A stretch of DNA of 25,165 nt from positions 1-25,165 of the IMG/VR virus record IMGVR_UViG_3300036466_000086; one strand, written 5' to 3'. The DNA comes from a virus. Each line of letters opens with the position of its first letter. The first letter of the stretch is position 1. The notes below the pieces were generated by a model, which had not been told where the DNA came from, ran no database searches, and saw only the letters and a program-made list of their open reading frames with translations. This document shows positions 1-24,378 of the stretch, piece after piece. A program made the position numbers and the translations under genes.

Positions 1-1381
1 TCCAAGCATTTTTTAATGTCCATATTGTCTTTCCAAATTTTCCAGAATTAGGATTTAATCTTGGAAACTTTTTCTTAGATAAGCTATCTTCATAATTTTT
101 AATTGTTTTTGAAACAGCATTATTTATCTTATCTATTGTTCTAGATACTCCTTCAACTCCTTGAAAGAATTTCTTTCTTTTAGCCTTTAATGCATTATTG
201 TTTGCTTCAGCAAGTTGTAGAGACAGTTTAGCAAGAAGTTCAGAAGATGTAATCTCTCCACTCTCAAATCTTTTTCTTCTCATAACAAAATCAAATAATC
301 TTCCAAGTAATTCAAGAACTACTTCAAAAAATTTCTTACCTCTTAAATCAGATTTCTCATAAACATTTAATCCGTTAAGCTTATTCATTACTTTTTCATT
401 TGTTAATCCAAGAGCCACGAATTCTGGTAATCCATTTTTAGACTTAATATAATCAAGAGTTGCTTGTGCAATCTTTTTCTCTTCTATTTCATCATATATA
501 GAAAATTCAGGCATCAAGTCTTCAACAGTAAGGTGTCTAATAGCTTGCTCATGAAGTTTTTGTAATCTATTTACAATAGGAGAAACCTCAGATGCTTTTT
601 GAACTCTAGCATACTCTGTAGCAGCATGAATAGTCTCATGGACAAAAGCTTCAGCAGAACTCATCTGATTTCCAGCATATTGACCAGCAGTTCCAACATT
701 AACATATAGACCTTTAGATAATCCTTTAAACTTAATAAATCCACCATTTTTCTCAGCTTCTTTATTTAAATAAACATGCATAGCTGGAATAAAATCAGAA
801 GCAGAATCAGTAAAAGTAGATAATACATTTTTAAGATGAGACTTATGATTATCGCTAATATTAACATCATCAAGCTCAACAAGTTCATCAAACAATTCAA
901 TAGATTTCTTTGGATCATTTAATATTCCAACTTGTTGTTTTTCGAAATCAGAAGAAATCTCTTCAGATAAAGAGTCCTGACTTGAACCAAGATCATCTAA
1001 TATTTTTTCATCTAATTCATTTAATGCATCAATGAAGATTCCATTTTTTGTATATCCATTAGTAGTAATAAAAACAGCACCAGTAGAACCATCTTTTTTT
1101 CTACTTACAGTTTCTATCTCCCCATTAGCATTATATTTTATACTGTCAATAACTATTGGGTATGATTTCTTTTTGTCTCCAGTATTATCGACAACTCTAA
1201 TCCTATCTCCAGGCTTATAATAGTTTTCATTAAGATGGATAGTCTTTTCGTTAGCAGAATATAGATTAGTTATATATTTTTCAGCCAAAGCTTTCTTAGC
1301 TTCAAGTTCTTTTCCAGAATACATAGACTCAAGAATATCAAATTCCTGGTCTATCATTTCTTCTATTAGTTTACATGCCAT
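1..1381 (-). CDS. Zincin-motif protein following the virion RNA polymerase (3' end missing)
   Basis: The reading frame is open from an ATG at 1381 to the window edge (460 codons), so the C-terminus is missing. An AAGGAT ribosome binding site lies inside the last codons of the polymerase gene, and the frame differs from the polymerase frame by one base, so this is a separate gene. Residues 248-252 read HETIH, a HExxH zinc-metallopeptidase signature in a helix-like context (AEAFVHETIHAAT). About 68 residues later P319-E320-F321-V322-A323 resembles the downstream Glu motif (xEFVA) seen in zincin domains of large phage and conjugative 'polyvalent' proteins, so E320 is the likely third zinc ligand. 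The rest is charged and helical, with a Lys/Arg-rich stretch near residues 360-420. By position it may correspond to the C-terminal domain of N4 gp50. It could act on the host after ejection or on virion proteins during maturation; the substrate is unknown. Confidence 0.75.
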   Translation of the reverse strand, partial: MACKLIEEMIDQEFDILESMYSGKELEAKKALAEKYITNLYSANEKTIHLNENYYKPGDRIRVVDNTGDKKKSYPIVIDSIKYNANGEIETVSRKKDGSTGAVFITTNGYTKNGIFIDALNELDEKILDDLGSSQDSLSEEISSDFEKQQVGILNDPKKSIELFDELVELDDVNISDNHKSHLKNVLSTFTDSASDFIPAMHVYLNKEAEKNGGFIKFKGLSKGLYVNVGTAGQYAGNQMSSAEAFVHETIHAATEYARVQKASEVSPIVNRLQKLHEQAIRHLTVEDLMPEFSIYDEIEEKKIAQATLDYIKSKNGLPEFVALGLTNEKVMNKLNGLNVYEKSDLRGKKFFEVVLELLGRLFDFVMRRKRFESGEITSSELLAKLSLQLAEANNNALKAKRKKFFQGVEGVSRTIDKINNAVSKTIKNYEDSLSKKKFPRLNPNSGKFGKTIWTLKNAW

Positions 1382-1385
1382 TTTA

Positions 1386-4300
1386 TTATAATCCTTCACA
1401 TTCATTTATATTTTTGTTCATTGTATCATTAATTCGCTTAGTATCATCTTCAGAAAGTACATACTCTGTACCACTTGAGTTAGTAGCGGAAAGAGAAGAC
1501 ACATCGTTAACATCATTAGCATTATTGATACCTCTAGCGGACTCACTCTTAGGAGAAACAACTCCATACCCAAGTTTAGAAACATTATAGTCTTCGATAG
1601 TTTCATTCTCTAAGAATCTATCTTTTTCTTTTTCTTTATATTGTTTGTTTATAAATTCAGAGCCAGGTAATGCAGTCATGTGCATAACCTTAATATCATT
1701 ATTAAACAATTCTTCTCTAGCTACTTTTGATACAGAATCTAAATCAGATAACTTTTTACCAATATCGTCAAAAGAATAAGATTTCTTATTTTTACCAAAA
1801 CCAGTAACTATGCTTTCTATTTCAGATCTTTGTTTTTCTGTCATTGTTTTAGCTACTCTTCTCATTGATACAAGTAACTCATTTGTTAAGCTATATTCTT
1901 TACTAATATTGAAAACTTGTGTATTGTAATCAACAACATTATCTAAAGCTGAATTAAGACTAGACATCTTAGCATCATGAATACCAAGAATTCCACCTTT
2001 TCCTAATAGATTAGTCATCAAACTTCCATCTATATAGTGAATAGGTATAACAGCACCAGAGTTTATAGCCTCTTCAAACTGTCTAATCATACTTTGAACC
2101 TTAGGAGAACTTCCGTTTGATAGAGCAGTTTGAGCCGCACCATACTTATAATCATATTTTGTATCTATACCAGTATTAACAATTGCAACACCATCTCTTG
2201 TACCATCTCCTAGTGGAGACTTAATAAGTGGAAAAATATCTCTTAAAGATTTAATAATCTCAAGTTCTTGTTCTGCAGTTATAGTGCCAAAACCACCAGC
2301 TAACTGTATTGCTTCATCATATTTAATTTTCCAAGCCCTAAACATCATTTTAAAACTATTGTTTATAGTTTCATTAGCTTCAATCATATCTGCAAATTCA
2401 GTAGATAAAATACTTTCTACTTGATTTCCGTAACCATCTTCAATTATGTTTCTAAGATATTGACCAAGAGTAATCTGCTCACCGTTTCCAATATTAATAG
2501 ATATGTCTTCGATAGACTTATCTCTAAGCATTTGCTTAAAGTCTCTAAGATTAATTGATGTCTTAGACAAAATATTTTCAATTAATTCATTACTCTCAGC
2601 ACTTCCATCTAAAAGTTTAGTTGGTATAGCTTCAATCATTTTATATCCAAGGTGTCTTTTAATAGATTTCATACCAGCAGAATAACCAAAAGTCATAAAT
2701 GGATCTTTAAACAATGCTCTACCATCTTTAGAAACAACATACTCTTCTCTGCTTGCACTTGAATTTTCTGAAGAAATAGTATCAGACTCAACTTCAACTT
2801 TTTCAAGTATATCTGGAAGGAACTTATTTTTTCTAAGAGTAGACCATAATCCAAGAGGATCGATTGAATCAGGGACATCATCTGGCTCTATCATTCCACC
2901 AGCAAGAGTTCTATATCCATCTACAACTCTTCCAGAATCTATTTCATCATTCATGCTAGATATTCTTTCAAAATCATTTTCAGATATTCCATCTAGACCA
3001 CCAATAAATATACCTCCTTTGGCTAACCATTCTTTAGTTTTTTTAACATCTGATAAAGGAAGCTGCATTAACTTTAAAATAAATCCACTAGTAACAGCAT
3101 CAAACTCAACTGATAAGTTAGTTTTGAAAGATTTAGATTCATTATTAATTGCATTTTGATAAGCAGTTACAGCTTGTATACCAACTATTGAATGACTCAA
3201 GTGCTCAGCTTCTAATTCTATGCCATTAAGTTTTAATTTTCCATTATTAAATAATTTTTTCAAATCAGAAATATTTGAATTCAATACAACATCGGCAAAC
3301 TCATATATTTTTTTAGTTGATTTTTTATCAACAGCAAAACCAAATGCTTGAGCGATAGCAGTTTTAAATATATTCATATCTTTTTCACTATCAATTTTAA
3401 TATTAGAAGCAAATGCTTTTGGAGTAACTAAAAATCTATGTAGCTTGTCAGCCTGAGGATTTACAGTTACTGAATCCATCATGAATCTTCCGTTTCTAGA
3501 GAAAAACCAATCGAAGAAAAATTTATTTTCTTGTCCAGAGTCAATATTAGATCCCAAGTTTATTAGATCATCAAGGCTAGTTGTAAGCTCTCTATTTCTT
3601 GCAATTGCAGATTCTCTATCGTTAAATGATAGGTCGTTAAGATAATCTTCATTTGTATATCCAAGCAATTCTAAAACTTTATCTTTTCCAAGAGAAAGCA
3701 AATCGTTTAATGCGTCAGTATTAAGTTCATATTCTTCTTTTGATAATACATTTAATGTGTCAACAGATGCACTTGGAACTTCGGTAACATCATTTTTTCT
3801 AATTGTAAATGTCTTGTCTTTTCTAGAAGAAGACGAAGCAAAAATATAACCTTTTCTATTTCCTTCAAAGCCTATGTCTTCCTTAACAGTGTTATATAAT
3901 GCTGATATCTTATTAATAGAAGATTTATCAGAAGGTAATTTTTTATCAGATTTAAGATTTTTAGATAACTGAATCATTGTTGTATTCTGACCATTAAGCT
4001 CAAGGTTAATATCATTTGGATCATTATATGCAAAAGCAGATTCGTACACATCTTTTCCACCATATTTCTTATAATCAGAAGAAGAAACAATAGTATCTTT
4101 TAAAGGTTCAATATATCCTTTAGACTCCATGTAATAAAGTGCCATTTGCCCAAGATCCATCTTAATTTTTACACTAGTTTCTATATCAATATCTCTTCTT
4201 GTTTTCAATGAAAGATTAGAAAGAATATTTTGACCAAGCTCAGAAGCTATAACTTTTTTAAACTTACCTTTGTTTCTCCAAAAAGCTATAATATCTGGAG

Positions 4301-7300
4301 ATAAACTTTGCTCATCGACACCAAGCATGTTAGCAATCTCTTCGTTTGTATTAAAGATTAATTTACTAGACATAAAAGAAATATATTCATCAGCAGCTAA
4401 AGCTATTGCTGTCGCAACATTTTTATTGATAGATATTTCACCATCAATCTTACTAAAAACTAATCCTCTTCCTGGTCCATTTTGACCTTTAAGCTTTTCA
4501 AGACCTTCGTTGTTAGCATATGCTAATGTGTTTCCAAGTACAGTTGTTGCATCATTTGAATAATTCATAACAGCTACAGATATTGGATCTTCTCCAAGAG
4601 CCAGAGAAGAAAGTCTATTTTTTTTACTTCTAGATGGCTCAACTATATTTAGTGGATTAATATGTTGACCTTTAATTTTACCAATACCTGCATACACAGA
4701 AGTACCATTCTTAGCTATTACCTTACCATTCTCTGTTATAGTTTTTTGACCAATTATAGACTCAATATGTGCGGTACCCTCAAGATCATTTTTTATATCT
4801 TTAATCTGCTCTTTAAATGGAGCAATTTTATTTTCATAAATTGCTTCAATAGAATTATTAAGTTCTTTTATTCTATTAGTAATCTTAGTCTTTCTTTCAA
4901 GAAGTCTAAACTTATCTATATGGAATCCATCTAATAGCTTAAAGATTCTTTCGATAATCATCCTAGCTAATTTAATAGGAGAGTCCATAGCTATTCTAGC
5001 TTTTTCTTTAGTAGTAGATTTTCTAAGTGTATCGTTAGCTTTTTTAATCTTTTGGTTAAGAACAGATATTTGGCTAAAAATATTATTTTGTTCAGCAGAA
5101 AGAAACTTCTTTTCATCTTTCATCTTATTTATATCATCAATAAAAGAATCAATAGTTCTTTGAAAACTTTCAAGATTATGATTTAAAATATCAACTCTAT
5201 TACTAGTAGAAAGAACTTCTTGCTTATCCGTAGATTGAATATCTTTCTTTATAGATACTAACTCTTTACTTAGATTATAAGAATGCTCTTCGTAAGGAAA
5301 TGATTCAGAAAGTGGATATCTATCATCAGTTGCAGAAACATCTTCAACGTCGATGCTAGACTCGTATGGAACAACTTGTTCTGGAGTAGATTCTTCATAC
5401 GATGGCATAGGATATACATCAAATATATTATCTGACGAAGGAGGAGTGATCTCAAACGTAGGAGTTTTTATCTGACTAGCAAGATCAGAAGAAGATTCTT
5501 TTGTATTGTTTTCTTCTTTTCTTTCTTTTTTATTATCTACTTCTTTCTCTTTTTTGATTTCTTTTTTGGTTTCTTTATTCTCTTTAGCTATTGATGCTTT
5601 CGTATCTTTAGCTTCTTTTATAGAATCAGAATACTTTTTTATATCTTTATTTATTGATACAATTTCTTTCTTTAATGCATTAAGCTTATTATCATCTCCT
5701 AAATTAACAACAGAATTGTATAATTTTTTTAAACCAGTTTCTTTTCCAGATTTAAATCTATCAAATGCTGAATCAATAACAGATTGTTCTTCTTTTGTAA
5801 ATAAAGAAGAATCTAATGATGAAGAAGATTTAGACGAATATTCTTTTGTATCATTTTTTTTAGAAGAATTAGTAGAAGTAGTTTTTCTTAAGCCTTCTAG
5901 TTCTTCTCTTTTTTGTCTATATTCAGAAACTATATCTCTATCTCTAGCATTTTCAATATCTTCTATTTTAACACCATTAAATTTTTTAGCAAGCTTATTA
6001 TGTTTAGTAAGAAATCCAGCAAGTCTTTTAATTCTATCTACTTTATCTGATTTTTTAACATCTTCATCAACTGTAGTGTCGTCAATTTTAGAAAGCTTAA
6101 CATCGTACAATTTAGAAAGATTAGATATTGCATCAACAGATCTTCCTATGTAGTCAAGAGTCTGAAGAACACCAGTCCTAGAATCTGAATCCAATAAATT
6201 TTTTGCTATATCTCCAGGATTTATTTGAAAATCACTAGAAAATTCACTATAAGTTACAGGAACCTGTGTATTTTTTCTGTCCACAATTGATTGTAGTGCA
6301 GAAGAATAATTCTCGCTAGCACCAGACTCAACTAATTCTCTGGCTCTAGATTTAACATCTCGTTCAACTTCTTGAGCAGCTTCAGAAAGCTTATTAAATT
6401 TAGATTCTTGACTAGCATGAAAATTGCTTATTTTTGAAACGTTACTAGTGATTGCTTTAGAATCTTGTCTTTCAATTGCATTTCTAAGATTATTAAAATA
6501 TGATTCATATCCTTTAAATTCATCAGATACAACCTCTTTTTCAACAGTATTGATATCCTTTCTAGCTCTAACAAAAGTTTCTTGCTCGTCTTTTACGCTT
6601 TTAATAGTTTCAGAATCTAATCCTAATGCTCTACCAAGACTTTCAATATTCTTCTTAATTGATTCATTAGAAAAGTCTCCAGAGTCTTTCATCTCAGATA
6701 ATAATTGTCTAAAGTTATTTTCTCTAGTATAATAATCAAGATTCTCTTGGTCAGAGCCAAGTGAGTTAATAGATTTTTCATCACCATCATAAATAGTTTT
6801 TTTTGTCATCTTTCTAACTTGATCAAGTAAATCTTTTCTAGTATTTAATATTCTTTCTTTTAATCTCTCGTCAAGAACAGCAGATTCATCAATAGAATTA
6901 AGTGAATCATTTGCATCAAATAAACTTTGTTGAGTTTTGTTTTGCTCGTAAGAACTTATAGAATTAATAGCATTATTTATTTTTTCTTCAACCTGAGTAT
7001 TAAAATCTAAATCAGTTGCAGTTTTTGCGTCTTCAGCAATGTTAACATCACTAGCGACAGACTCATCAACTTTACCAGATCCAATCTGACTATTAAAAGT
7101 AGTAGCAGCTTTTGCACCTTCGGCTAATCCTTTTCCTCCAATAGAAAGTGCATCGGCACCAGCTCTAAATTGTGTACCGCCAGCAAAACCAGCAAGAGTT
7201 GATTGGATAACTTCATCAATATTTTCTTCACTAGAGATAATTTTAGAGAATGAACCTTCATTTTTTTGAGTACCAAGTTGAGTTCCTAAGATTTGTCCCC

Positions 7301-8912
7301 AAGTTTGAGTATATTCTTGTGCAGCTTCACCTAGACCAGCAGCAGTTAGTGCACCAGCTTGCTCAGCAATTCCAAGAAGAATCTTTTTCTTTCCTATAGC
7401 ATCAGCAGAACCGAATGCATTTTTAAGTGCAACTTTTCCACCTTCAATACCAGTTATTTTATCAAAGGCAATTCTGTCAAGTCCAAATAAAGCAAAATTT
7501 AAAGCACCAACAGATAGGGTCTCAGCCATAGTTGGTTCAACTCCTCCATTATTTGCTTTTCTTTCTTCAAGATCATTATTAGTTTGTTCACCAACAACAG
7601 ATAATAAACCAGCATTTTCTGCAACCTTTTGAATACCTCTTTGAACGGAAGTGTTCGCTTTAGCAATTTTAGAAGAAATAGATGCAACTTCATCCGCTTT
7701 TCCAGCAGCTTTTGCAGCAGTTAGTTCAGCTCCAAGCTTACCAAGTATAGAAAATTTACCGAAACCAATAGCCATTTCAAGCATAGTAGCAAGAGACTCA
7801 GCAGCTATTTCTGGCTTAGATAATACTTTTCCTATGGCACCAAAATAGTCTCCTTTTTTCCATTTACCACCAGCCTCATTTAATGTCTTGCTTGCATCTC
7901 TTCTATCATACCCAACTAATTTATCAACATTTTCTTGTTGCTTAGCTTCGTCAAGCAAAGTATTATTTCCTGGAGTAAGAACATCAAGTATGAAGTCTCC
8001 TGTGCTAGCAAGTGCTCTGACACCACCAGCTGCGGCAGCTCTTAGTATTCCAGATTCTCCAGAAGCAGAAGCTTTATCAGCAGCCTTCATTAGCATTTCA
8101 CTATTATATTTATTTTGAGCAAGTCTATTAGAATCTTGGTTAAACCCAAATGCATCTGTATTGTAAACCTCTGTATATCCAGAACCCAACTGAGCAATAT
8201 CTTTTATCTTCTTGCCTTGCTCGTTGTAACCAGATCCATATGTTCTATTTTCTATGTTTGCTCTATTGCCATGCCACTTGTTTTCCCAGTCTTCTGCGCC
8301 AGTAAAACCTTTCTCGTCAAGAATATCATATCCTTGTTCAATGAATTGTCTTCTGTATCTATCAGCAGCACTATTCTTAGCAACACCAGTTTTGTATGTA
8401 TATAGTGGTTTTCCTTGGTAATCATATCCATCAAGAAGTCTAAGGTGATAAACTCTATGCTCAGCATTTGGATCATCCTGTGCAGAATTATATTGATCAA
8501 TAAGCTCTTGTCTATTTTTAGAACTTTGTTCAATACCAACTCCTGGCTCCTCAAAAGTTTTATTATCTAAATTTAATTTTCTGCCATAAAGATTAGCTTG
8601 TAAATCTTTTCCTCCCCATAAATCATTAACAACATTGTATGCTCTCTTTGCATTAATCATTAATGAAGAGTCATCCTCTGCACCAGATTTTTTAGATAAT
8701 CTTTCTGCTTTTCTTTGTGCTATTTCATCTTGAGAAAGTCTTGTATTCTGTCCAGAAATATTTGTTCCAGTAAAAAAACCAGAGTTATCACTTGGTGAGA
8801 TATCTGGATTACCCAAATCAGATGCTACACTAACATTGTCAAAAATAGATGGTTGTGAATATTGGTTATTGTATTCAGAAGTATTTGCATATTCGTCGTA
8901 TATTTCAGCCAT
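1386..8912 (-). CDS. Giant virion-encapsulated single-subunit RNA polymerase (N4 gp50-like)
   Basis: This 2508-residue protein ends in a T7-superfamily RNA polymerase module. Visible motifs are: T/DxxGR as S1805-R-N-G-R1809; motif A with D1938 (FDAVTSG); motif B with R2065, K2069 and Y2077 (RxxxK then Y eight residues on, in FKDPFMTFGYS); motif C with D2313 (GIHDA). The spacings (R1809 to D1938 129, K2069 to Y2077 8, K2069 to D2313 244) are close to those of N4 mini-vRNAP (R424, D559, K670, Y678, D951). The core is roughly residues 1385-2508. The N-terminal half holds a possible GIY-YIG-like domain (about 151-255), an Ala/Gly-rich hydrophobic region (285-600) and long Lys/Glu/Ser-rich coiled coils (650-1380). 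In N4 this enzyme is packaged, ejected with the DNA and transcribes early genes from hairpin promoters. The start has an AAGGA site. Only one cysteine (C2505) is present. Unlike N4 (3500 residues), no long C-terminal domain follows the core. Confidence 0.9.
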   Translation of the reverse strand: MAEIYDEYANTSEYNNQYSQPSIFDNVSVASDLGNPDISPSDNSGFFTGTNISGQNTRLSQDEIAQRKAERLSKKSGAEDDSSLMINAKRAYNVVNDLWGGKDLQANLYGRKLNLDNKTFEEPGVGIEQSSKNRQELIDQYNSAQDDPNAEHRVYHLRLLDGYDYQGKPLYTYKTGVAKNSAADRYRRQFIEQGYDILDEKGFTGAEDWENKWHGNRANIENRTYGSGYNEQGKKIKDIAQLGSGYTEVYNTDAFGFNQDSNRLAQNKYNSEMLMKAADKASASGESGILRAAAAGGVRALASTGDFILDVLTPGNNTLLDEAKQQENVDKLVGYDRRDASKTLNEAGGKWKKGDYFGAIGKVLSKPEIAAESLATMLEMAIGFGKFSILGKLGAELTAAKAAGKADEVASISSKIAKANTSVQRGIQKVAENAGLLSVVGEQTNNDLEERKANNGGVEPTMAETLSVGALNFALFGLDRIAFDKITGIEGGKVALKNAFGSADAIGKKKILLGIAEQAGALTAAGLGEAAQEYTQTWGQILGTQLGTQKNEGSFSKIISSEENIDEVIQSTLAGFAGGTQFRAGADALSIGGKGLAEGAKAATTFNSQIGSGKVDESVASDVNIAEDAKTATDLDFNTQVEEKINNAINSISSYEQNKTQQSLFDANDSLNSIDESAVLDERLKERILNTRKDLLDQVRKMTKKTIYDGDEKSINSLGSDQENLDYYTRENNFRQLLSEMKDSGDFSNESIKKNIESLGRALGLDSETIKSVKDEQETFVRARKDINTVEKEVVSDEFKGYESYFNNLRNAIERQDSKAITSNVSKISNFHASQESKFNKLSEAAQEVERDVKSRARELVESGASENYSSALQSIVDRKNTQVPVTYSEFSSDFQINPGDIAKNLLDSDSRTGVLQTLDYIGRSVDAISNLSKLYDVKLSKIDDTTVDEDVKKSDKVDRIKRLAGFLTKHNKLAKKFNGVKIEDIENARDRDIVSEYRQKREELEGLRKTTSTNSSKKNDTKEYSSKSSSSLDSSLFTKEEQSVIDSAFDRFKSGKETGLKKLYNSVVNLGDDNKLNALKKEIVSINKDIKKYSDSIKEAKDTKASIAKENKETKKEIKKEKEVDNKKERKEENNTKESSSDLASQIKTPTFEITPPSSDNIFDVYPMPSYEESTPEQVVPYESSIDVEDVSATDDRYPLSESFPYEEHSYNLSKELVSIKKDIQSTDKQEVLSTSNRVDILNHNLESFQRTIDSFIDDINKMKDEKKFLSAEQNNIFSQISVLNQKIKKANDTLRKSTTKEKARIAMDSPIKLARMIIERIFKLLDGFHIDKFRLLERKTKITNRIKELNNSIEAIYENKIAPFKEQIKDIKNDLEGTAHIESIIGQKTITENGKVIAKNGTSVYAGIGKIKGQHINPLNIVEPSRSKKNRLSSLALGEDPISVAVMNYSNDATTVLGNTLAYANNEGLEKLKGQNGPGRGLVFSKIDGEISINKNVATAIALAADEYISFMSSKLIFNTNEEIANMLGVDEQSLSPDIIAFWRNKGKFKKVIASELGQNILSNLSLKTRRDIDIETSVKIKMDLGQMALYYMESKGYIEPLKDTIVSSSDYKKYGGKDVYESAFAYNDPNDINLELNGQNTTMIQLSKNLKSDKKLPSDKSSINKISALYNTVKEDIGFEGNRKGYIFASSSSRKDKTFTIRKNDVTEVPSASVDTLNVLSKEEYELNTDALNDLLSLGKDKVLELLGYTNEDYLNDLSFNDRESAIARNRELTTSLDDLINLGSNIDSGQENKFFFDWFFSRNGRFMMDSVTVNPQADKLHRFLVTPKAFASNIKIDSEKDMNIFKTAIAQAFGFAVDKKSTKKIYEFADVVLNSNISDLKKLFNNGKLKLNGIELEAEHLSHSIVGIQAVTAYQNAINNESKSFKTNLSVEFDAVTSGFILKLMQLPLSDVKKTKEWLAKGGIFIGGLDGISENDFERISSMNDEIDSGRVVDGYRTLAGGMIEPDDVPDSIDPLGLWSTLRKNKFLPDILEKVEVESDTISSENSSASREEYVVSKDGRALFKDPFMTFGYSAGMKSIKRHLGYKMIEAIPTKLLDGSAESNELIENILSKTSINLRDFKQMLRDKSIEDISINIGNGEQITLGQYLRNIIEDGYGNQVESILSTEFADMIEANETINNSFKMMFRAWKIKYDEAIQLAGGFGTITAEQELEIIKSLRDIFPLIKSPLGDGTRDGVAIVNTGIDTKYDYKYGAAQTALSNGSSPKVQSMIRQFEEAINSGAVIPIHYIDGSLMTNLLGKGGILGIHDAKMSSLNSALDNVVDYNTQVFNISKEYSLTNELLVSMRRVAKTMTEKQRSEIESIVTGFGKNKKSYSFDDIGKKLSDLDSVSKVAREELFNNDIKVMHMTALPGSEFINKQYKEKEKDRFLENETIEDYNVSKLGYGVVSPKSESARGINNANDVNDVSSLSATNSSGTEYVLSEDDTKRINDTMNKNINECEGL
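8148..8462 (-). other. GIY-YIG / T5orf172-like domain inside the polymerase N-terminus
   Basis: This covers residues about 151-255 of the virion polymerase. The order of elements is like a GIY-YIG fold: a hydrophobic strand (RVYHLRLL), a second strand with Y-x-K-T-G (LYTYKTGVAK), a helix with clustered arginines (R185, R187, R188) and a later acidic helix ending in E210 and H214 (AEDWENKWHG). The following GSGYTEVYNTDAFG segment is a pattern I associate with this domain in other large phage proteins. This is a recognition from memory of the pattern, not a computed match, and the canonical tyrosines are not all present. If real, it would be ejected into the host with the polymerase. Confidence 0.45.
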
Positions 8913-8986: not shown

Positions 8987-10666
8987 TTAGTTAGATAAAT
9001 AAGTTCTAGCATTATAATATAAATCTTTAGCAGCATTTATATCTCTATTAAATGAATCTCCAGGCTGACCAGTACCACCTATAGAAGTAGCAAGTGCTCT
9101 TTTCTCTGCAGGAGTTATATTTTTACCCTGCTCCTTTAGAAACTCTCCAATAGGTATAGCCATATAATCTCTAATAGATGAAAGACCAGAAGCACCCTCT
9201 ATTGCTCCAATGATTTTCTTAGAATTTTCTGGATTAGATCTAAGATATTCCCCCAGCGGAACGGCAATATTATCTCTAATGTCTCTAACATTTCTCTGAT
9301 TTGCAAATATATATTTATTGATAGCAGATGTAACTGGTTTTTCTATATTAAACTCAGGAGAAACAGTTGAGTTGGCTAAACTATTTAATAGCTTAGAATT
9401 TCCACTAATTAAGCCATCTTTCCATGTTTCAGATTCTATCTTCTTGTTTAATTCATTTACCTTCGTAAATCTTTGTTTTGCACTAAGGCTCTCATCATTA
9501 AGGATATCTTGCTTCTGAGATGATAATTTGTCTATCTCTTTAAAGCTAGATGATCCTTGGTTAGATGAATCAGCAACGATGCTGACAGCATTGTCAGCAT
9601 TAGAATTCGAAGCACTAGCATTTTCTGCTTCTTTCTTTGGAAGATTAGCTGTATATCTAGCGAGTGCTGACTCAAATCTATTTTCAGCAGTCTGAGGAGC
9701 TATTCCTCTTATATCATTAAGAATTGCTTGAGCAGATGTAGCACCTTGGCTACCAACTTGTATCCTATTTAATCCTTCAGTTGGCTGAGGAGTAAACTTA
9801 GGAGATCCTCCTCCAAAACCAAGAGTACTAGAACTTGTAGAGTATCCACTTCTGACTAACCCACCTATATCAGAAGGAGAATATCCTTGTCTTGCAAGAG
9901 TAGCTCCGTATTTTCTCATTTCATCTGCAACATTTTGTCCAGCAGTAGTACTTGGAAGTTCTAAGTCTTCTATAACTTTATTAACTGATTTACCAGTTTC
10001 TTCAATATACTTAGCAGGATTTTGTATAGAATTCTTACCGTACGATTGAGAGCCAGAGGTTGGTGATTTTAATCTTGAGTCAACTAATTGTTTTTGCAAT
10101 TCTTCTTCCTGAGTAGGAATGAAAGACGATCCAAACGAATTTAATAATTGTTGTTTTTTAAGCTGACTAAGCCCAGGAACAGAATTTAATTGCTTAGAGT
10201 AATCAGATAATGATGCAGCTCTAGACTCAGCAGTATTAAGATTGTTAAAACCTTGATTAAAAGCTTCTTCAAACTGCTTGTCAGTTCCTCCAGCTTTTGT
10301 AAATTTATTATAATTTTCAAGTAAAGATTTTCCTTGATCTATTCCTATAACATCTTGTTCTGTTATTTTTTTAGGAGATATTTTATTTGCAGCTCGTTCT
10401 GCTTCAAGATCAGCCAATTGAAGACCTTTAACCTTTTTATTGAGATTAAATTCTTCTTGTTGTCTAGCATTTTGTATATCAAATCTTCTAGCATTTTCTG
10501 CATCCTGAGAAGCAAGCCTAGCATCAAGAAGTTCTTGTCTTTGCTTATCGTCTTCTCTCTTTTGAAGATTTCCAATAATGTCAGACAGCCCAGACGAAGG
10601 AGATTGACCAAATCTTGGGATTGAAATTCTTCCGCCTGAAAAACTACCTATATTTTTTATAGCCAT
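8987..10666 (-). CDS. Probable internal/ejected virion protein, 559 residues
   Basis: This is a Gln/Asn/Ser/Ala-rich, helical, cysteine-free protein between a small ejection-type protein and the giant polymerase. That is the position taken by ejected proteins in N4-like phages. Residues about 30-90 are strongly helical and charged (coiled-coil-like); residues 200-320 are Gly/Ser/Thr-rich and probably flexible. Near the C-terminus an element of about 35 residues is repeated: IRDNIAVPLGEYL from I463 and IRDYMAIPIGEFL from I498. No enzyme motif and no membrane segment is visible. The start is supported by AAGGAAACAAT before ATG. I do not recognise a family. The assignment as an internal virion protein rests on position and composition. 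Confidence 0.7.
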   Translation of the reverse strand: MAIKNIGSFSGGRISIPRFGQSPSSGLSDIIGNLQKREDDKQRQELLDARLASQDAENARRFDIQNARQQEEFNLNKKVKGLQLADLEAERAANKISPKKITEQDVIGIDQGKSLLENYNKFTKAGGTDKQFEEAFNQGFNNLNTAESRAASLSDYSKQLNSVPGLSQLKKQQLLNSFGSSFIPTQEEELQKQLVDSRLKSPTSGSQSYGKNSIQNPAKYIEETGKSVNKVIEDLELPSTTAGQNVADEMRKYGATLARQGYSPSDIGGLVRSGYSTSSSTLGFGGGSPKFTPQPTEGLNRIQVGSQGATSAQAILNDIRGIAPQTAENRFESALARYTANLPKKEAENASASNSNADNAVSIVADSSNQGSSSFKEIDKLSSQKQDILNDESLSAKQRFTKVNELNKKIESETWKDGLISGNSKLLNSLANSTVSPEFNIEKPVTSAINKYIFANQRNVRDIRDNIAVPLGEYLRSNPENSKKIIGAIEGASGLSSIRDYMAIPIGEFLKEQGKNITPAEKRALATSIGGTGQPGDSFNRDINAAKDLYYNARTYLSN

Positions 10667-10684: not shown

Positions 10685-11092
10685 TTATATTTTAGAAGCA
10701 ACGTTAGCTGATCCAAAATGTTTATTAACTGCTTCTGTTCTGGCAACAGCATTATTATATTTTGTCTTCTCTGCTTCATAGTTTCTATTAGCATTTTCAA
10801 TACTTGCGTTAAGTGCTTTCTTTTGAAGATTATAGTTTTGGAAACCTTGGAACGCTTCAAGTGCACCAAGACCAACTTGTGCAGCACCCAACCCATCTCC
10901 AAACGAAAATCCAGAATCAGAAACTGGAAGATTGCCCAACCCATCTTGTCCGACACCAATGCTTCCAGTAGAATTACTTCCGCTTTTAAAAACTGGGCTA
11001 GAGATAACATCTCCACCATTACCACTTACAGGTATTGGTTTAAAATATGAATTTGTAGCATTACTTCTAGAGTAAGTTGTATAGTCAGCCAT
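10685..11092 (-). CDS. Small internal virion protein, N4 gp52-like in position and layout
   Basis: This is a 135-residue protein without cysteine. The first 65 residues are Gly/Ser/Asn-rich and probably disordered. Residues about 66-90 form an Ala/Gly/Leu helix (GAAQVGLGALEAFQGF), followed by a long polar helix (KKALNASIENANRNYEAEK) to about residue 120. A glycine-rich helix followed by an Asn/Gln/Lys coiled coil is the usual layout of small ejection proteins next to the giant polymerase in N4-like phages and resembles T7 gp14-type core proteins. It may line or traverse the envelope during DNA entry. An AAGGAT site precedes the ATG. Exact family membership cannot be shown here. Confidence 0.65.
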   Translation of the reverse strand: MADYTTYSRSNATNSYFKPIPVSGNGGDVISSPVFKSGSNSTGSIGVGQDGLGNLPVSDSGFSFGDGLGAAQVGLGALEAFQGFQNYNLQKKALNASIENANRNYEAEKTKYNNAVARTEAVNKHFGSANVASKI

Positions 11093-11180: not shown

Positions 11181-13487
11181 TTAACCAGTTTGAGTAACCT
11201 TTCTAGTTTCATATGCATAGTCAACATCATAAAGCTGGTCAAAATTAAAAGCAGCCTCGCCAAGCATGCTTGAAATATATGCATCTGGCATATTTAGTGT
11301 CCCAGAAAAGTAAGAAGACTGGTCATCAAACATCATTATTGTAGCAGAGGCATCATTGTAATTCATTGAATCAAGAAGCTCTTTTAATTCTGAATGTTGT
11401 TCTTGTATTGAATCAAGACGTGTCTCGCCCTCGGCAATCATTCTATCTGTTTCCATCTGCATAGCTTGGTTCATTGTTGAAAGTATTACGTTTGCTGCCT
11501 GAAGATAGCCAACACTAAATTGTTGTCCAAATAAAGTAAAGTCTCCATACATAGCTGCAATAATAGCAGCGGCAATTATAACTGCAGCTCCTAGCTTTGG
11601 ACCAAGAACTTTAATTACTATATGCACAACTAGTGCAACAGCAAGAATCTTAAATAGTGCAACCCATAAAGATGTGGTGCTACCTAAAGTCCATATTATT
11701 ATTACGAATGCTACCATTTTAAGTATAGCACCAAAGATAGACGTTTCATACCATTTAACAAAAACTTCTTCTGTTGCGTAACCAAGAAGACAAAGACCAG
11801 CTTCATATATTGCAACAAAATTTTTATAGCTAAGACTATTAAGAACACCAAGCGGAACAATTATTCTGCTATGTTCAGCGTCTCCATTTAGATCTGTATC
11901 TATGGTTTGACCAGATATTTTATATTTCTGCCTATAGTCAGCTATAATTATCTGCTTATATTCTGATTGACTACCCTGATATCTCATTACCATTCTATAT
12001 CTTGCTTCCTGACTTGTCCCATCCCCAGAAGAAACACTAACATAATATGTATCAATGGTTTTGGAATATGTTCCAACTGGAAGAATAGAGCCAGAGATTG
12101 TGCTTCTAGAAATTGTAAATGTATAAACCATGTTAAGCTGATTCATTGAAATACTTATATTTCCAGATCCTGGAGCATAATAATTAAATGATTTATATAA
12201 TGCTTCAGCTATAGCAGAACCTCCAGCATGTGGATGAATGCCAGTCATTAGGTATGCATTATCCATATCAGGATTAGCCAGGCTGTCTACAAGATCATTT
12301 GGCTTAAGATTTAATTTTTTAAGCATTCTTTTTAGCTTATAATTTTCTAAATCTTGAACTACATTATTTTCTTTTAGTGCTATTATAGCTGTCATTGGTA
12401 CAGTTTCTGAGAAATAAATATTAGTCGGTGCACCAGATAATAACTCAATATGTGTAAAATAAAATTCTGAATCATAATCGCTTCTAGTGTATTCTATATA
12501 CAGATTTTCAAAATCATTGGCTGCAGTAGATATTGAAAATGTTGTCAATGGCAAGTAAATCTCTATAATATTTGAATCACTAACACTTTCAGCAAAAACT
12601 CTATAGTTATTAACTCCTGATATATTATAAACTGTATGGTCATAGTAAGTAACCTCATATTGAGAATAATAAACAACTTCATATGGATACGAATCAGTTT
12701 CAACAGAATCTTCTATCACTTTGATAGTATAGTTACCAACATCATATAAAGAATCGCTAATTGACCATTCCTTCACAGAACTAGTATTAAATACATAGCT
12801 ATCGTATAGTAATCCAGATTCATATATTTCTATGATTGTCTCATTTATGGAAACTCCAGCAATACCAGATAATTCAAGAATTCCAGTTCCTTCATCAAAA
12901 TTAATATATGTTCCATCGTAAGAATATGAGTCCTGAAGAGACTCAACTATATCTTCCTCTGGCTCTTTTATAAAATCACAAGTTAATGTATTTCCAGATC
13001 TAGAGACACTTGGATTTATCCATGTATCGCCAGCATTAATTAATGTTTGCGTGTGATTAGTATAATCATAATTATTTTGAATATAGTTAAACATAATTTG
13101 ACTATCAGATAAATAGTCACCAATAAATCTTCTTATTCCATTTGCCTCTGGAACAATAGTCTGAAGATAAGAAAGAGTAGCTGCTTCATTTATAACTCTA
13201 GTACTTGCATTTGTACTTGGTGCGTATCCAAGACTGGTTAAGAATCTAGGTGAGCACTTTCTTCTGTAGTCCTTTTGAAAACTCTTGTATATTTTAAAGT
13301 AGCTATTCGCATCTCCTTTTGACTGACGAATAGCATTACGTCTAGCACTTTCATCAGCTTCTCCTGGAGTAAGAAGATTCTGTATAGATATATCACTAAC
13401 TGTCTCATAATGATCAACAATACCAAGTAGAAGGTTTAGTCCTCCAGTCATAACAGTCATTAGATTTTTACCAAAACTTCCACCCAT
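11181..13487 (-). CDS. Large virion protein with a C-terminal membrane-segment cluster
   Basis: This is a 768-residue protein whose ATG shares one base with the stop codon of the acyltransferase gene, so the two are translationally coupled. Residues 1-140 are helical and begin with a hydrophobic Gly-rich stretch. Residues about 190-370 are rich in Tyr/Ser/Val/Ile and look like beta-sandwich (Ig-like) domains. Residues 450-530 are again beta-rich. Residues about 584-601, 605-628 and 632-646 form three hydrophobic segments (FGAILKMVAFVIIIW and following). A charged helix (675-710) and a polar tail follow. A virion protein with membrane segments, placed just before the ejection proteins, could form part of the channel through the host inner membrane. 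No catalytic motif is visible. It is the nearest candidate acceptor for the upstream acyl cassette, by position only. Confidence 0.7.
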   Translation of the reverse strand: MGGSFGKNLMTVMTGGLNLLLGIVDHYETVSDISIQNLLTPGEADESARRNAIRQSKGDANSYFKIYKSFQKDYRRKCSPRFLTSLGYAPSTNASTRVINEAATLSYLQTIVPEANGIRRFIGDYLSDSQIMFNYIQNNYDYTNHTQTLINAGDTWINPSVSRSGNTLTCDFIKEPEEDIVESLQDSYSYDGTYINFDEGTGILELSGIAGVSINETIIEIYESGLLYDSYVFNTSSVKEWSISDSLYDVGNYTIKVIEDSVETDSYPYEVVYYSQYEVTYYDHTVYNISGVNNYRVFAESVSDSNIIEIYLPLTTFSISTAANDFENLYIEYTRSDYDSEFYFTHIELLSGAPTNIYFSETVPMTAIIALKENNVVQDLENYKLKRMLKKLNLKPNDLVDSLANPDMDNAYLMTGIHPHAGGSAIAEALYKSFNYYAPGSGNISISMNQLNMVYTFTISRSTISGSILPVGTYSKTIDTYYVSVSSGDGTSQEARYRMVMRYQGSQSEYKQIIIADYRQKYKISGQTIDTDLNGDAEHSRIIVPLGVLNSLSYKNFVAIYEAGLCLLGYATEEVFVKWYETSIFGAILKMVAFVIIIWTLGSTTSLWVALFKILAVALVVHIVIKVLGPKLGAAVIIAAAIIAAMYGDFTLFGQQFSVGYLQAANVILSTMNQAMQMETDRMIAEGETRLDSIQEQHSELKELLDSMNYNDASATIMMFDDQSSYFSGTLNMPDAYISSMLGEAAFNFDQLYDVDYAYETRKVTQTG

Positions 13488-13978
13488 TATAAGCCTTTTA
13501 TTTTATTGTAAAATTTATTTATAGATTCTTTTGTTACTTCAGATATCAATACTGAATCATCAGAAACTTTTGTTCCTAGTTTAATAAACTTTTCTATGTT
13601 TTTGTTTTTTATATATAAATCAATATTTTTAAATAAATTATTCATAATATAATTATTAAAAAGAATATTACCATCAGATACCCTGAATGGCTTAAGCACA
13701 TTAATATAAGATATCGAGCCAAATTGTTTTTCTCCAATTTGAGTTAACTCAGTACATGCAGCTCCAATGATAAGATTATTAATCATCAGAATATAACATG
13801 TTCCTCTAGATATTGATCCTCTAATCTTTATATTTACGCTATTGCTAGATCTATCAGTAGATGACAATACTTCAGATGTAGAAAAAATCTCTCCAAGTAT
13901 CATACCAGAAACAATATCAGCATGAGAAGAATCAGCTTTATATATTGAAAAATTATTTAGTGAGTCTAACTCCACCAT
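13487..13978 (-). CDS. Probable GNAT-type N-acyltransferase
   Basis: This is a 163-residue protein that starts 26 bases inside the ketosynthase gene and has the strongest ribosome binding site in the window (TTAGGAGG). Strand-like segments CYILMINNLIIGAAC (61-75) and FGSISYINVL (86-95), followed by KPFRVSDGNILFNNYI (96-111), resemble beta2-beta3, beta4 and the acyl-CoA-binding turn plus helix of GNAT enzymes, although the Q/RxxGxG/A loop is degenerate. T7 gp13, needed to assemble the T7 internal core, is also described as GNAT-like, so such a protein beside ejection genes has precedent. With an acyl carrier protein and ketosynthase upstream, the donor here could be an acyl-ACP instead of acetyl-CoA (inference). 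It could also be a structural relic without activity. Confidence 0.45.
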   Translation of the reverse strand: MVELDSLNNFSIYKADSSHADIVSGMILGEIFSTSEVLSSTDRSSNSVNIKIRGSISRGTCYILMINNLIIGAACTELTQIGEKQFGSISYINVLKPFRVSDGNILFNNYIMNNLFKNIDLYIKNKNIEKFIKLGTKVSDDSVLISEVTKESINKFYNKIKGL

Positions 13979-14792
13979 AAAAGCCTCCTAATCCGCTTGC
14001 TAAAACCAATCCAGTTTTATTGTCATATCTTTTATCTTCTATTAACATACATAATTCAATTAGACCACTGGCACCTTGAGTATGCCCATGAATTTCCTTA
14101 TAAGACACCGTATCTCTAATCCCAAATAATTCAATAGATGAAGCTTCTACTTCATTATTTCTTTCTGTTCCTGTTCCATGTGTTTTTACGTATGATACAT
14201 CATCAGAGTATAAATCATTAAGGACTTTGATATAACCATCCGCACTAACAGACATTGGACTTGAATCTGCATTCCACTTCCAAGAAGTAAGATCTATCTT
14301 GTAATTAGAATACTTATTTGATAAATGTATAATAGCAGCACCATCTGTGCAAACCATATCTATTCCAAGCTGCTTAAATAATAGCTCTTGTGTAGGTTCT
14401 CGAAGTTCATCAGAATAAACTACTACATCTGTATATCCTGAATCAAGAAGCATCTTAGCTTCATGTAAAGAATATATACTACTTGCACAAGTGTTTGAAT
14501 TACTACTTGCATAATTTACATTATTTATCATCTTTGATATCGTAAAAACATTCAATCCTATCTGGCTCTTTATTGGAGCATTTCCAGGAAGAGACAAGTT
14601 TTTAATATTTCTAACATCACTATGATGCATTGCTGGACCAGCAGCATACAAAAAAGCAACATTTTCTCCAACATCTAATCTGTCAAAAAATGGATTTAGT
14701 ATATTAATATATTGACCAGTCATAAACTTTGATCTGTCAATAGACTCAATAAGTGGATCTCCAACAACATATTCAAAATCTTTTACATACAT
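13953..14792 (-). CDS. Shortened beta-ketoacyl-ACP synthase (ketosynthase)
   Basis: This 279-residue protein has the thiolase-fold condensing-enzyme motifs in order. The nucleophile C102 lies in NTCASS followed by a helix and SGYTDVVVYS. H205 lies in KTHGTGTE with the downstream ELFG. K232 and H237 lie in YKEIHGHTQGASG. The C-terminal glycine loop is SGLGGFYGG. These match the FabB/FabF Cys-His-His triad plus the conserved Lys; K232 to H237 is five residues, as K328 to H333 in FabB. It is about 130 residues shorter than typical enzymes (about 410), mostly before the Cys and between Cys and the first His. Such enzymes condense or decarboxylate malonyl-ACP to extend acyl-ACP. It overlaps the ACP gene by 10 bases and the acyltransferase gene by 26. 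Activity is plausible because no catalytic residue is missing; the product is unknown. Confidence 0.85.
   Translation of the reverse strand: MYVKDFEYVVGDPLIESIDRSKFMTGQYINILNPFFDRLDVGENVAFLYAAGPAMHHSDVRNIKNLSLPGNAPIKSQIGLNVFTISKMINNVNYASSNSNTCASSIYSLHEAKMLLDSGYTDVVVYSDELREPTQELLFKQLGIDMVCTDGAAIIHLSNKYSNYKIDLTSWKWNADSSPMSVSADGYIKVLNDLYSDDVSYVKTHGTGTERNNEVEASSIELFGIRDTVSYKEIHGHTQGASGLIELCMLIEDKRYDNKTGLVLASGLGGFYGGVRLTK
13984..13989 (-). promoter_or_regulatory. Strong ribosome binding site of the acyltransferase gene
   Basis: AGGAGG lies six bases or less upstream of the ATG at 13978 and is embedded in the last codons of the ketosynthase gene. Most genes here have the weaker AAGGA form, so this one may be tuned for higher translation or for coupling. 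Confidence 0.7.
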
Positions 14793-15031
14793 GATACTAT
14801 TCTTTCATAAATTGTATTTGGTGTTTGGTTTGAATAATCAAACTTTTCCTTGTTCAAATCTGATGTGTCAAAACAATGATACTTATCATCAAGTTCAACA
14901 TACATCATTATTCCGCTAAAGCTATCAATACCAGATGATAATATCTTATCATCAAAAGATATCGGATTACCATGGTTTTCGATAATATAATCATTAATAA
15001 AATCTAATATTTCATCTTCTGAATAATTCAT
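14783..15031 (-). CDS. Phage acyl carrier protein
   Basis: This 82-residue acidic helical protein has the carrier-protein signature: DKILSSGIDSFSG, with S37 in G-I-D-S as the predicted 4'-phosphopantetheine attachment site, followed by a helix (IMMYVELDDKY) like the recognition helix of ACPs. Its length matches bacterial ACPs (about 75-85 residues). It would need a host phosphopantetheinyl transferase, as none is seen in the window. It is followed with overlap by a ketosynthase and then a probable acyltransferase, so it most likely carries the acyl chain for that cassette. Host ACP normally serves this role, so a private ACP suggests an unusual chain or a dedicated acceptor. AAAGGAT precedes the ATG. 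Confidence 0.8.
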   Translation of the reverse strand: MNYSEDEILDFINDYIIENHGNPISFDDKILSSGIDSFSGIMMYVELDDKYHCFDTSDLNKEKFDYSNQTPNTIYERIVSCM

Positions 15032-23351: not shown

Positions 23352-23795
23352 TTATGCTTTAATAAGTTCAAAGTGAGGAAGGTCGTCAAAAGATTGATCT
23401 GAAAAATCTTTGTCAGAATCCCAATCTCCACCCCATCTTAATTTATGAGTAATCTCACCAGATGCCAATAACATTTCAGATACAGCAAACATATATCCAG
23501 CAAGCATATAAAATCTAGCTCTAGCCTTTAATCCATCTGAATAATCAATTGGATAAGGTGCTATATCAACAGCCTTACTTAATGGCTCTTCTTTAGTAAC
23601 TTGATGCTTTGATCGCTTATTTACTCCATCAAGCTTGCTTTTACCAGCAAGAAAATATTCCATTTGCTTTTCATCTGGTCTTGCTCCTTCAGTAACACTG
23701 TTATCCATAATCGATACAACAATTGTACATATTTTTATTAAATCAGGATGGCAAGTATTTAATCTAGCCTTAGATGTTTTTCCATATTTAGCCAT
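23352..23795 (-). CDS. M15-family endolysin (L-alanyl-D-glutamate endopeptidase type)
   Basis: I place the start at 23795 (MAKYGKTS) because AAAGGA lies just upstream and overlaps the holin gene's stop; an upstream in-frame ATG would overlap the holin gene by 68 bases. The 147-residue product shows the M15 peptidase pattern: EGARPDEKQ, SKHQ with H64, AVDIAPY with D77, LRWGGDWD, and DLPHFEL with H141. H64, D77 and H141 are the predicted zinc ligands and D138 the catalytic acid, as in the phage T5 endolysin. It would cut the peptide stem of Gram-negative peptidoglycan. The H64-D77 interval (13) is longer than the seven residues in T5-type enzymes. It has no signal peptide, so it needs the holin encoded upstream. 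Confidence 0.88.
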   Translation of the reverse strand: MAKYGKTSKARLNTCHPDLIKICTIVVSIMDNSVTEGARPDEKQMEYFLAGKSKLDGVNKRSKHQVTKEEPLSKAVDIAPYPIDYSDGLKARARFYMLAGYMFAVSEMLLASGEITHKLRWGGDWDSDKDFSDQSFDDLPHFELIKA

Positions 23796-23796
23796 A

Positions 23797-24378
23797 CTAT
23801 TTTCCTTTCGATAATGCTGTATGTATTGCTTCATTTTTATCACTAGAGCTTTGTGAAGTTCCAACGAAATAATTTATAAAAGATGCTATAACTGTACCCA
23901 ATACAAATCCAAGAATAGTATCAGCAAACCTAACATTAGCCTCTGGAATAGTAGCAAATGTTATAAATCCAATATAGAACATTGCAAACAAAGTCCATAC
24001 AGATGCAAATATATAAACAAAGTTTTTAGCTAACTTACTAGAAGTGGCAGAAGTCTGTGCAACATTATTCATATTTCTTGCGTTAGCAGTGTTTTTGTTA
24101 TTTGAATCAATTAGTGCTTCGCCATGTCTATTGTCTTCTTTCTTATTTGCAAGAGCTAGCTTTTCAAGTTCAATTCTAGTTGCAGGATCATTCTCTATAT
24201 CTTTAAGCTTATCAACCTGGCTCTTTGTTAATCCTTTATCTGGACTAAGTTTAAACCCAGCTTTGTCTTCAAGATATTTGACACCAGCATCTAGACCACC
24301 TTCAACTGCATTGGCAGCAACGTCTAACCCTTTATCCATTAGCATACTTGCTATTGAACCTATTAGTAATGATAACAT
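23797..24378 (-). CDS. Holin (three membrane segments)
   Basis: I prefer the ATG at 24378 (MLSLLIGS), which has AAGGAA upstream; an earlier in-frame ATG at 24426 would lie inside the preceding gene. The 193-residue protein has a short hydrophobic N-terminus (1-14), a long polar and helical middle and two clear membrane segments (about 119-143 and 151-173). It ends with INYFVGTSQSSSDKN, the C-terminal signature of the 3-TM holin family found in podoviruses and gene transfer agents. It would open the inner membrane for the endopeptidase encoded directly downstream; that ribosome binding site overlaps this stop codon. Confidence 0.8.
   Translation of the reverse strand: MLSLLIGSIASMLMDKGLDVAANAVEGGLDAGVKYLEDKAGFKLSPDKGLTKSQVDKLKDIENDPATRIELEKLALANKKEDNRHGEALIDSNNKNTANARNMNNVAQTSATSSKLAKNFVYIFASVWTLFAMFYIGFITFATIPEANVRFADTILGFVLGTVIASFINYFVGTSQSSSDKNEAIHTALSKGK

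Follow-up and report, generated by a model that had tools for sequence, protein, structure and literature searches.

The 25,165-base virus record analysed here (the window), whose main genes lie on the minus strand, encodes an N4-type virion RNA polymerase (vRNAP) that is split into two proteins. Part 1 (1386..8912, minus strand; ATG start) is a 2508-aa protein made up of an N-terminal domain (NTD) and a single-subunit RNA polymerase domain, with one Cys, at residue 2505 of 2508 (codon 1398..1400, minus strand), the fourth residue from the C-terminus. Part 2 (2..1381, minus strand) is a C-terminal domain (CTD) protein of which 460 aa are visible before the window end cuts it, and its only Cys codon inside the window (1373..1375, minus strand) encodes residue 3 counted from the ATG at 1381; the two Cys are predicted disulfide partners. 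Comparison with related sequences showed that the split is conserved, that it falls at the linker between polymerase and CTD in N4, and that each new end carries its chain's only Cys. We consider it probable that the parts are joined by a disulfide and that this joint is opened in the host cytoplasm, releasing the polymerase from the CTD.

Motif, profile and fold all identify the window protein as an N4-type vRNAP. The sequence-only reading had called it a distant vRNAP of this kind, and this held. The T/DxxGR motif SRNGR (residues 1805-1809; 3486..3500), motif A with catalytic D1938 (EFDAVTSG, residues 1936-1943; 3084..3107), motif B from R2065 through K2069 to Y2077 (2682..2720), and motif C with catalytic D2313 (HDA, residues 2312-2314; 1971..1979), all on the minus strand, stood at the residues it gave, and its spacing was right, with an R-to-D distance of 129 in the window versus 135 in N4 (R1421, D1556) and a K-to-Y distance of 8 in both. 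It had also singled out Ser in T/DxxGR, Tyr-Ser after motif B and HDA in motif C as departures from consensus, which proved mostly ordinary for the vRNAP family: in an 11-sequence alignment the first residue of T/DxxGR was variable and HDA was the commonest motif C (7/11 rows; N4 itself has FDG), and Tyr-Ser after motif B also occurred in Klebsiella phage KpCHEMY26. The reading gave no strand and missed the split, the Cys signature, the zincin half and motif A, which in the window's clade is EFDAVTSG in place of ExDGxTNG. R1809, D1938, R2065, K2069 and D2313 were invariant in a 35-sequence alignment.

PHROG 2206 ('virion RNA polymerase') matched part 1 residues 1488-2378 (1779..4451, minus strand; E 4.6e-85), the span taken as the polymerase domain together with the predicted fold, and Pfam vRNAP_dom_2 also matched part 1 (E 2.1e-6); agreement of this order lies well outside chance expectation. 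A phmmer search of the PDB with the whole part 1 protein returned no matches; a profile search of the PDB with the polymerase region and 34 relatives returned only N4 vRNAP entries (E about 1e-64). The AlphaFold2 model of the polymerase (pLDDT 81.1, pTM 0.82) predicted a right-hand fold, which had been named beforehand as the feature on which the assignment turned. Foldseek analysis with this model gave ten best matches that were all N4 vRNAP, followed by T7 and mitochondrial RNAPs, the best being N4 mini-vRNAP 3c3l_B (E 7.3e-28, TM 0.63). From the match of the model to N4, D1938 and D2313 are predicted to be adjacent. N4-type promoters are hairpins with 3-base loops in the early region, a region that the window does not include; a search of Alteromonas phage AD45-P1 for repeated 3-base-loop hairpins (13-mer) found none.

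N4-type vRNAPs are described as one polypeptide of about 2,800-3,800 aa (PMC10654107), and in eight reference records, those of N4 and of seven named schitoviruses, a single ORF of about 3,000-3,600 aa occupied the equivalent place. The window shares with N4 gp50 and its Schitoviridae homologues the single-subunit RNAP motifs, the profile and fold matches, the zincin-containing CTD (here on a separate ORF) and, judged by position, probably the ejection-gene neighbourhood. However, the N4 type is one Cys-free chain, whereas the window, up to its edge, has two proteins with one Cys each at the joint; because these two defining features fail, it is not a standard N4-type vRNAP. ORF sizes and order in the window resembled the N4 late genes, where ejection, structural, coat and portal genes lie in turn upstream of the vRNAP, and there were PHROG matches to phrog_2220 and phrog_2050. 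Upstream, a 559-aa protein (8987..10666, minus strand) and a 135-aa protein (10685..11092, minus strand), both without Cys, occupy the places of N4 ejection proteins and are gp51-like and gp52-like, respectively, by position only.

In N4, the polymerase ends at residue 2101 and is followed by a 23-aa linker and then by the CTD, which consists of C1, with a conserved HExxH, and C2 (PMC12633501). The part 1 profile aligned to N4 up to residue 2129 and the part 2 profile to N4 2475-2841, which places the break at the natural polymerase/CTD linker. The part 2 ORF matched PHROG 2206 further along (profile positions 2273-2565 of 3406, E 1.8e-23) and carries HETIH (626..640, minus strand), the zincin metallopeptidase motif of the C1 subdomain as interpreted in PMC5512222 and PMC12633501; a fold search with the part 2 C1 model gave no match at E 0.001. 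The likely start of part 2 is the ATG at 1381, 4 nt past the part 1 stop (the longest ORF begins at 1405), and AAGGA (1392..1396, minus strand), 10 nt ahead of this ATG and within the end of part 1, is its likely ribosome-binding site. Part 2 ends at the window edge, where a third part or more Cys may follow. Prediction confidence was low for the Cys-bearing tail of part 1 (residues 2425-2484 and 2503-2508) and, in a weak model, for part 2 residues 1-142; these tails are therefore probably disordered. The best-matching segment of the window's NTD (residues 59-568) was 55% identical to contig L004, whereas its polymerase core was closer to L013, L124 and others than to L004/L025, so the modules seem to recombine.

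Scans of viral contigs yielded 117 distinct vRNAP rows. Of these, 73 were single ORFs of 2700 aa or more, 27 were split chains and 17 were dropped from the counts. The dropped rows were L018 (same virus as L017); the truncated, Cys-free single ORFs L022, L023, L049, L051, L067, L071, L089, L097 and L104; L092, likewise truncated and Cys-free, with 'next' ORFs that were judged spurious; the 2409-aa L108, with a Cys at residue 6; and L027, L029, L075, L144 and L151, whose polymerase core was broken or unreadable. Comparable splits, each into two or three parts, were found in 27 loci besides the window, giving 28 curated split chains, all broken after the polymerase domain. Among the split chains, L028/L142 and L128/L132 are about 92% alike, and independent origins of Cys-jointed splits are few.

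Relative frames 0, 1 and 2 all occurred among the 28 split chains, so no single programmed frameshift underlies them. Junction gaps ranged from -11 to +26 nt (187 at one NTD joint), and part 2 had its own ATG, in several cases preceded by an SD-like AGGA. Programmed frameshift or read-through was ruled out, as frames and gaps differ among the split chains. It is true that GenBank labels the AD45-P1 gene 'potential frameshift', that its ORFs have been concatenated with speculation about a gene-calling error or read-through (PMC10654107), and that the core appears broken or unreadable in the five rows mentioned above, but the conservation of the split, with long open frames on both sides and Cys at every break, refutes the idea of an ordinary single-chain gene broken by sequencing error, pseudogenisation, stop read-through or programmed frameshift, which we regard as extremely unlikely.

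Two candidate markers of the split were rejected. The motif A form DAVTSG is also present in L150, a Cys-free frame that is open-ended and undivided, and the split chains L021 and L028 have DG.TNG. Zincin conservation was no better a marker, since some split chains retain HExxH and others (L014, L015, L016 and L019) have lost it.

Unsplit vRNAPs were nearly free of Cys. Among single ORFs of at least 2700 aa, 68/73 had none, with 10 Cys in total in 247,267 residues, and in a smaller comparison set 10/11 unsplit proteins had none. The exceptions were L134 (Cys at -3 and -1), L055 (at -143), and L020, L050 and L083 (within the first 48 aa). The 3419-aa vRNAP of L134 (L134:5816-16075) ends in SCDC and is the only one of the 73 single chains with a C-terminal outer Cys, which may form a junction to another virion protein.

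Split chains had Cys no more than 6 residues from the break on both sides at 42/42 junctions (28 chains), a count favoured by our choice of ATG, since downstream starts were moved to the last ATG ahead of the first Cys if that Cys lay at most 40 residues in; with longest-ORF starts, the first Cys of the downstream parts was at residue 3-7, and at 18 in L137. Just one non-junction Cys, in L152, was present in 108,411 residues of split chains, whereas at the rate of neighbouring genes in the same loci (0.76% Cys) about 824 Cys in all would be expected. The outer ends of the split chains lacked Cys (0/21 N-termini and 0/27 C-termini). Two chains found later in bacterial/archaeal genome bins (L165 and L166) kept the junction Cys pair, L165 having an additional Cys at residue 2. 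That the Cys arise incidentally from nucleotide constraints where stop/start and ribosome-binding sites overlap is hardly credible: many junctions are indeed compact, showing TAATG overlaps and last codons that contain SD-like sequence, but both Cys were also present where gaps were 8-26 nt (L013, L014, L016, L131, L133, L140), TGT and TGC codons were both used, and among the remaining pairs of adjacent genes in these loci only 1/87 had Cys on both sides.

The placement of Cys followed the order of the parts. First parts had Cys at the C-terminal end only, last parts at the N-terminal end only and middle parts at both ends. Part 2 of L021 and of L028 has another Cys shortly before its end, and a part 3 beginning M-x-C, as the idea of joint Cys predicted, was present in L021, L119, L120, L121 and L028; more three-part chains appeared in the 117-row survey. 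In L131, L137 and L163 the NTD is split off, and a Cys pair was found at that joint as well. The ORFs listed immediately upstream of the chains in the split loci were Cys-free except where they were themselves an N-terminal part. Phylogenetic analysis placed all 26 split rows of the tree in one clade of 30 rows (support 99) together with 4 unsplit rows, with 65 unsplit rows outside; L124, a single 3141-aa chain within the split clade next to L128 (branch 100), had no Cys. Given this placement in first, last and middle parts, and the near absence of Cys elsewhere in these chains, we infer an interchain disulfide between the two ends.

The middle parts vary by clade and most contain HExxH, and the last part is the CTD. 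In L021 (AAA_30, E 4.2e-26) and L121 (E 3e-22), the middle part is a superfamily 1 helicase, with the zincin motif and helicase together in part 2. The middle parts of L119 and L120 are probably of a similar kind, and the middle part of L146 gave a weak NADAR-like match (E 1.1e-5, below the curated cut-off).

Two of the dropped contigs showed further arrangements. L027 has a 763-aa ORF with its start cut off (L027:2-2293), whose sole Cys is next to last, and, 6.7 kb after it, a polymerase ORF that begins MASC (L027:9005-11206); chain parts may therefore be encoded apart. L144 (L144:1-1629) has an in-frame stop inside the polymerase core with an in-frame ATG at once after it, which could reflect sequencing error, mutation or recoding.

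A similar joint pattern was found in Crassvirales, whose RNAP cargo (phi14:2 gp76-78, crAss001 gp47/49/50) likewise consists of giant parts with joint Cys. The likeness to the window is confined to the joints: the crassvirus polymerase is not a single-subunit RNAP but belongs to another RNAP fold, its core having the catalytic motif DFDID (DFD[IV]D, of the DxDxD type), and inner Cys are commoner in crassvirus chains than in N4-type split chains. From 80 crass-like loci, 4 of them duplicates, we obtained 76 distinct polymerase ORFs. RNAP/downstream junctions had Cys on both sides in 58/60, both being missing in L212 and L216. Loci with a separate upstream part of 1200 aa or more had both Cys at that joint in 25/28, with one Cys missing in L183, L227 and L249; where the NTD was read as fused (a shorter upstream neighbour and a polymerase ORF of 3,299-5,005 aa), either Cys occurred in 0/30. 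In phi14:2 the Cys were at -1 in gp78, at 3 and -2 in gp77 and at 3 in gp76, with no others; crAss002 gp33 and cr116_1 gp30 lacked the N-terminal Cys. An independent-contrast test on the crassvirus tree gave 4 pairs, 3 for, 0 against and 1 tied (p 0.25), and is underpowered. The crass-like polymerase ORFs of L221 (3219 aa) and L254 (5005 aa), for which no downstream partner was found, had no Cys. Virion disulfides between phage proteins are known from crAss001 tail parts (PMC10172136).

The bonding partner of a terminal Cys cannot be read from sequence alone, and such residues could instead form disulfides within homodimers, bind metal or attach the chain to some other virion protein. We judge this improbable, since the distribution of Cys over first, middle and last parts is what head-to-tail joining needs, upstream ORFs that are not themselves an N-terminal part lack Cys, and Cys are absent once two parts form one chain, as in L124 and the crassvirus NTD fusions. 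On balance we favour, somewhat less firmly than the reading of the window itself, the view that a disulfide 'daisy chain' has evolved repeatedly, with Cys-jointed cassettes of Cys-poor ejected polymerases in two unrelated families and loss of the joint Cys on fusion. Such a string would form after assembly and thread the tail as one molecule, and the cytoplasm would then release polymerase, protease and helicase units.

Under the disulfide-joined reading of the window, the virion would carry the parts linked head to tail in one string, much as it carries the single N4 chain, and since the middle part of three-part relatives has Cys at both ends, the order of the string would be written in the cysteines. 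The absence of Cys from vRNAP has been presumed to avoid disulfides during transit via tail and periplasm (PMC3715699, PMC3915230); by avoiding Cys elsewhere in the chain, the split forms would likewise make no wrong bonds while threading unfolded through tail and periplasm. As virions assemble in a reducing cytoplasm, oxidation has to be late or assisted. A thioredoxin-domain protein, gp082 (L169:22326-22571; 72326-72571 of the NC_021532 record), is present in AD45-P1, but its presence is explicable as well by the ribonucleotide reductase that this phage also encodes. The reducing cytoplasm of the host would then open the bonds and free the polymerase from an inhibitory CTD, inhibition of the RNAP by the CTD being described for N4 (PMC12633501). 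Once freed, CTD, zincin or helicase parts could act elsewhere, and the redox-cut linker would substitute for proteolytic processing. Cytoplasmic release and relief of CTD inhibition lie a further step from the data than the bond itself and are put forward as suggestions.

The alternative that survives best is that the disulfides are real but serve only assembly (packaging, co-ejection), their opening having no regulatory role. In N4, encapsidation is said to require the CTD, and injection the N-terminal region (PMC5512222; PMC4496689, as unpublished data), so that a polymerase part made separately would have to be tethered. Nothing counts directly against this alternative, which fits all the observations and differs from release of the polymerase only in the last step; we hold it to be rather unlikely, and prefer release.

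Alteromonas phage vB_AmaP_AD45-P1 was the closest isolate by polymerase BLAST (32% over 609 residues). It has the split (2495 + 1409 aa) and the Cys pair as in the window; unlike the window, it is annotated as a frameshift and has a degenerate zincin motif, EEVVH. Polyvalent phage proteins with MPTase domains (PMC5512222) likewise deliver many domains as one protein, and their MPTase domains have been proposed to cut the multi-domain proteins after entry, releasing the units (Iyer et al., PMC5512222). In the window, by contrast, the division is already made at the level of the gene and the joints appear open to redox cleavage, and the HExxH-less split chains named above (L014, L015, L016, L019) differ from MPTase polyvalent proteins in that respect too.

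Within the literature searched, which did not cover the paper on crAss-like vRNAP (PMC12127119), the Cys joints seem to be new. They bear on the long-standing question of how a 380-kDa polymerase exits the virion, crosses two membranes and is activated. A 2025 preprint on N4 does not settle what the CTD does during early transcription and only speculates on DNA unwinding by the CTD (PMC12633501). A natural series of chains cut at domain linkers, with a Cys open to testing at every cut, marks the limits of the functional units, allows their order to be predicted and offers a redox-based way to probe CTD release. In addition, it recovers a group poorly handled by published screens: the window's motif A would not pass the ExDGxxxG filter described in PMC10654107, and AD45-P1 is recorded as having a frameshift. 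If the Cys-joint rule is true of crassviruses as well, which are abundant in the human gut (PMC10172136), it would be a general principle of protein ejection.

Elsewhere in the window, the region 23352-23864 (minus strand) gave a weak Peptidase_M15_4 match (E 0.0076, below the cut-off) and is a possible endolysin. Amid the structural genes, the minus strand at 13487-15031 carries carrier-protein-like, beta-ketoacyl synthase-like and unassigned 163-aa ORFs. The carrier-protein-like ORF is 82 aa long, contains SSGIDSFSG and had a weak DltC match (E 0.0048). The beta-ketoacyl synthase-like ORF is 279 aa long (Pfam PF02801, E 1.3e-8; PRK09185, E 3.8e-11) and was matched in only 1/50,697 phage records. 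At the equivalent place, L003 and L004 each carry an ORF of 163 aa and one of 287 aa, the latter synthase-like in L004.
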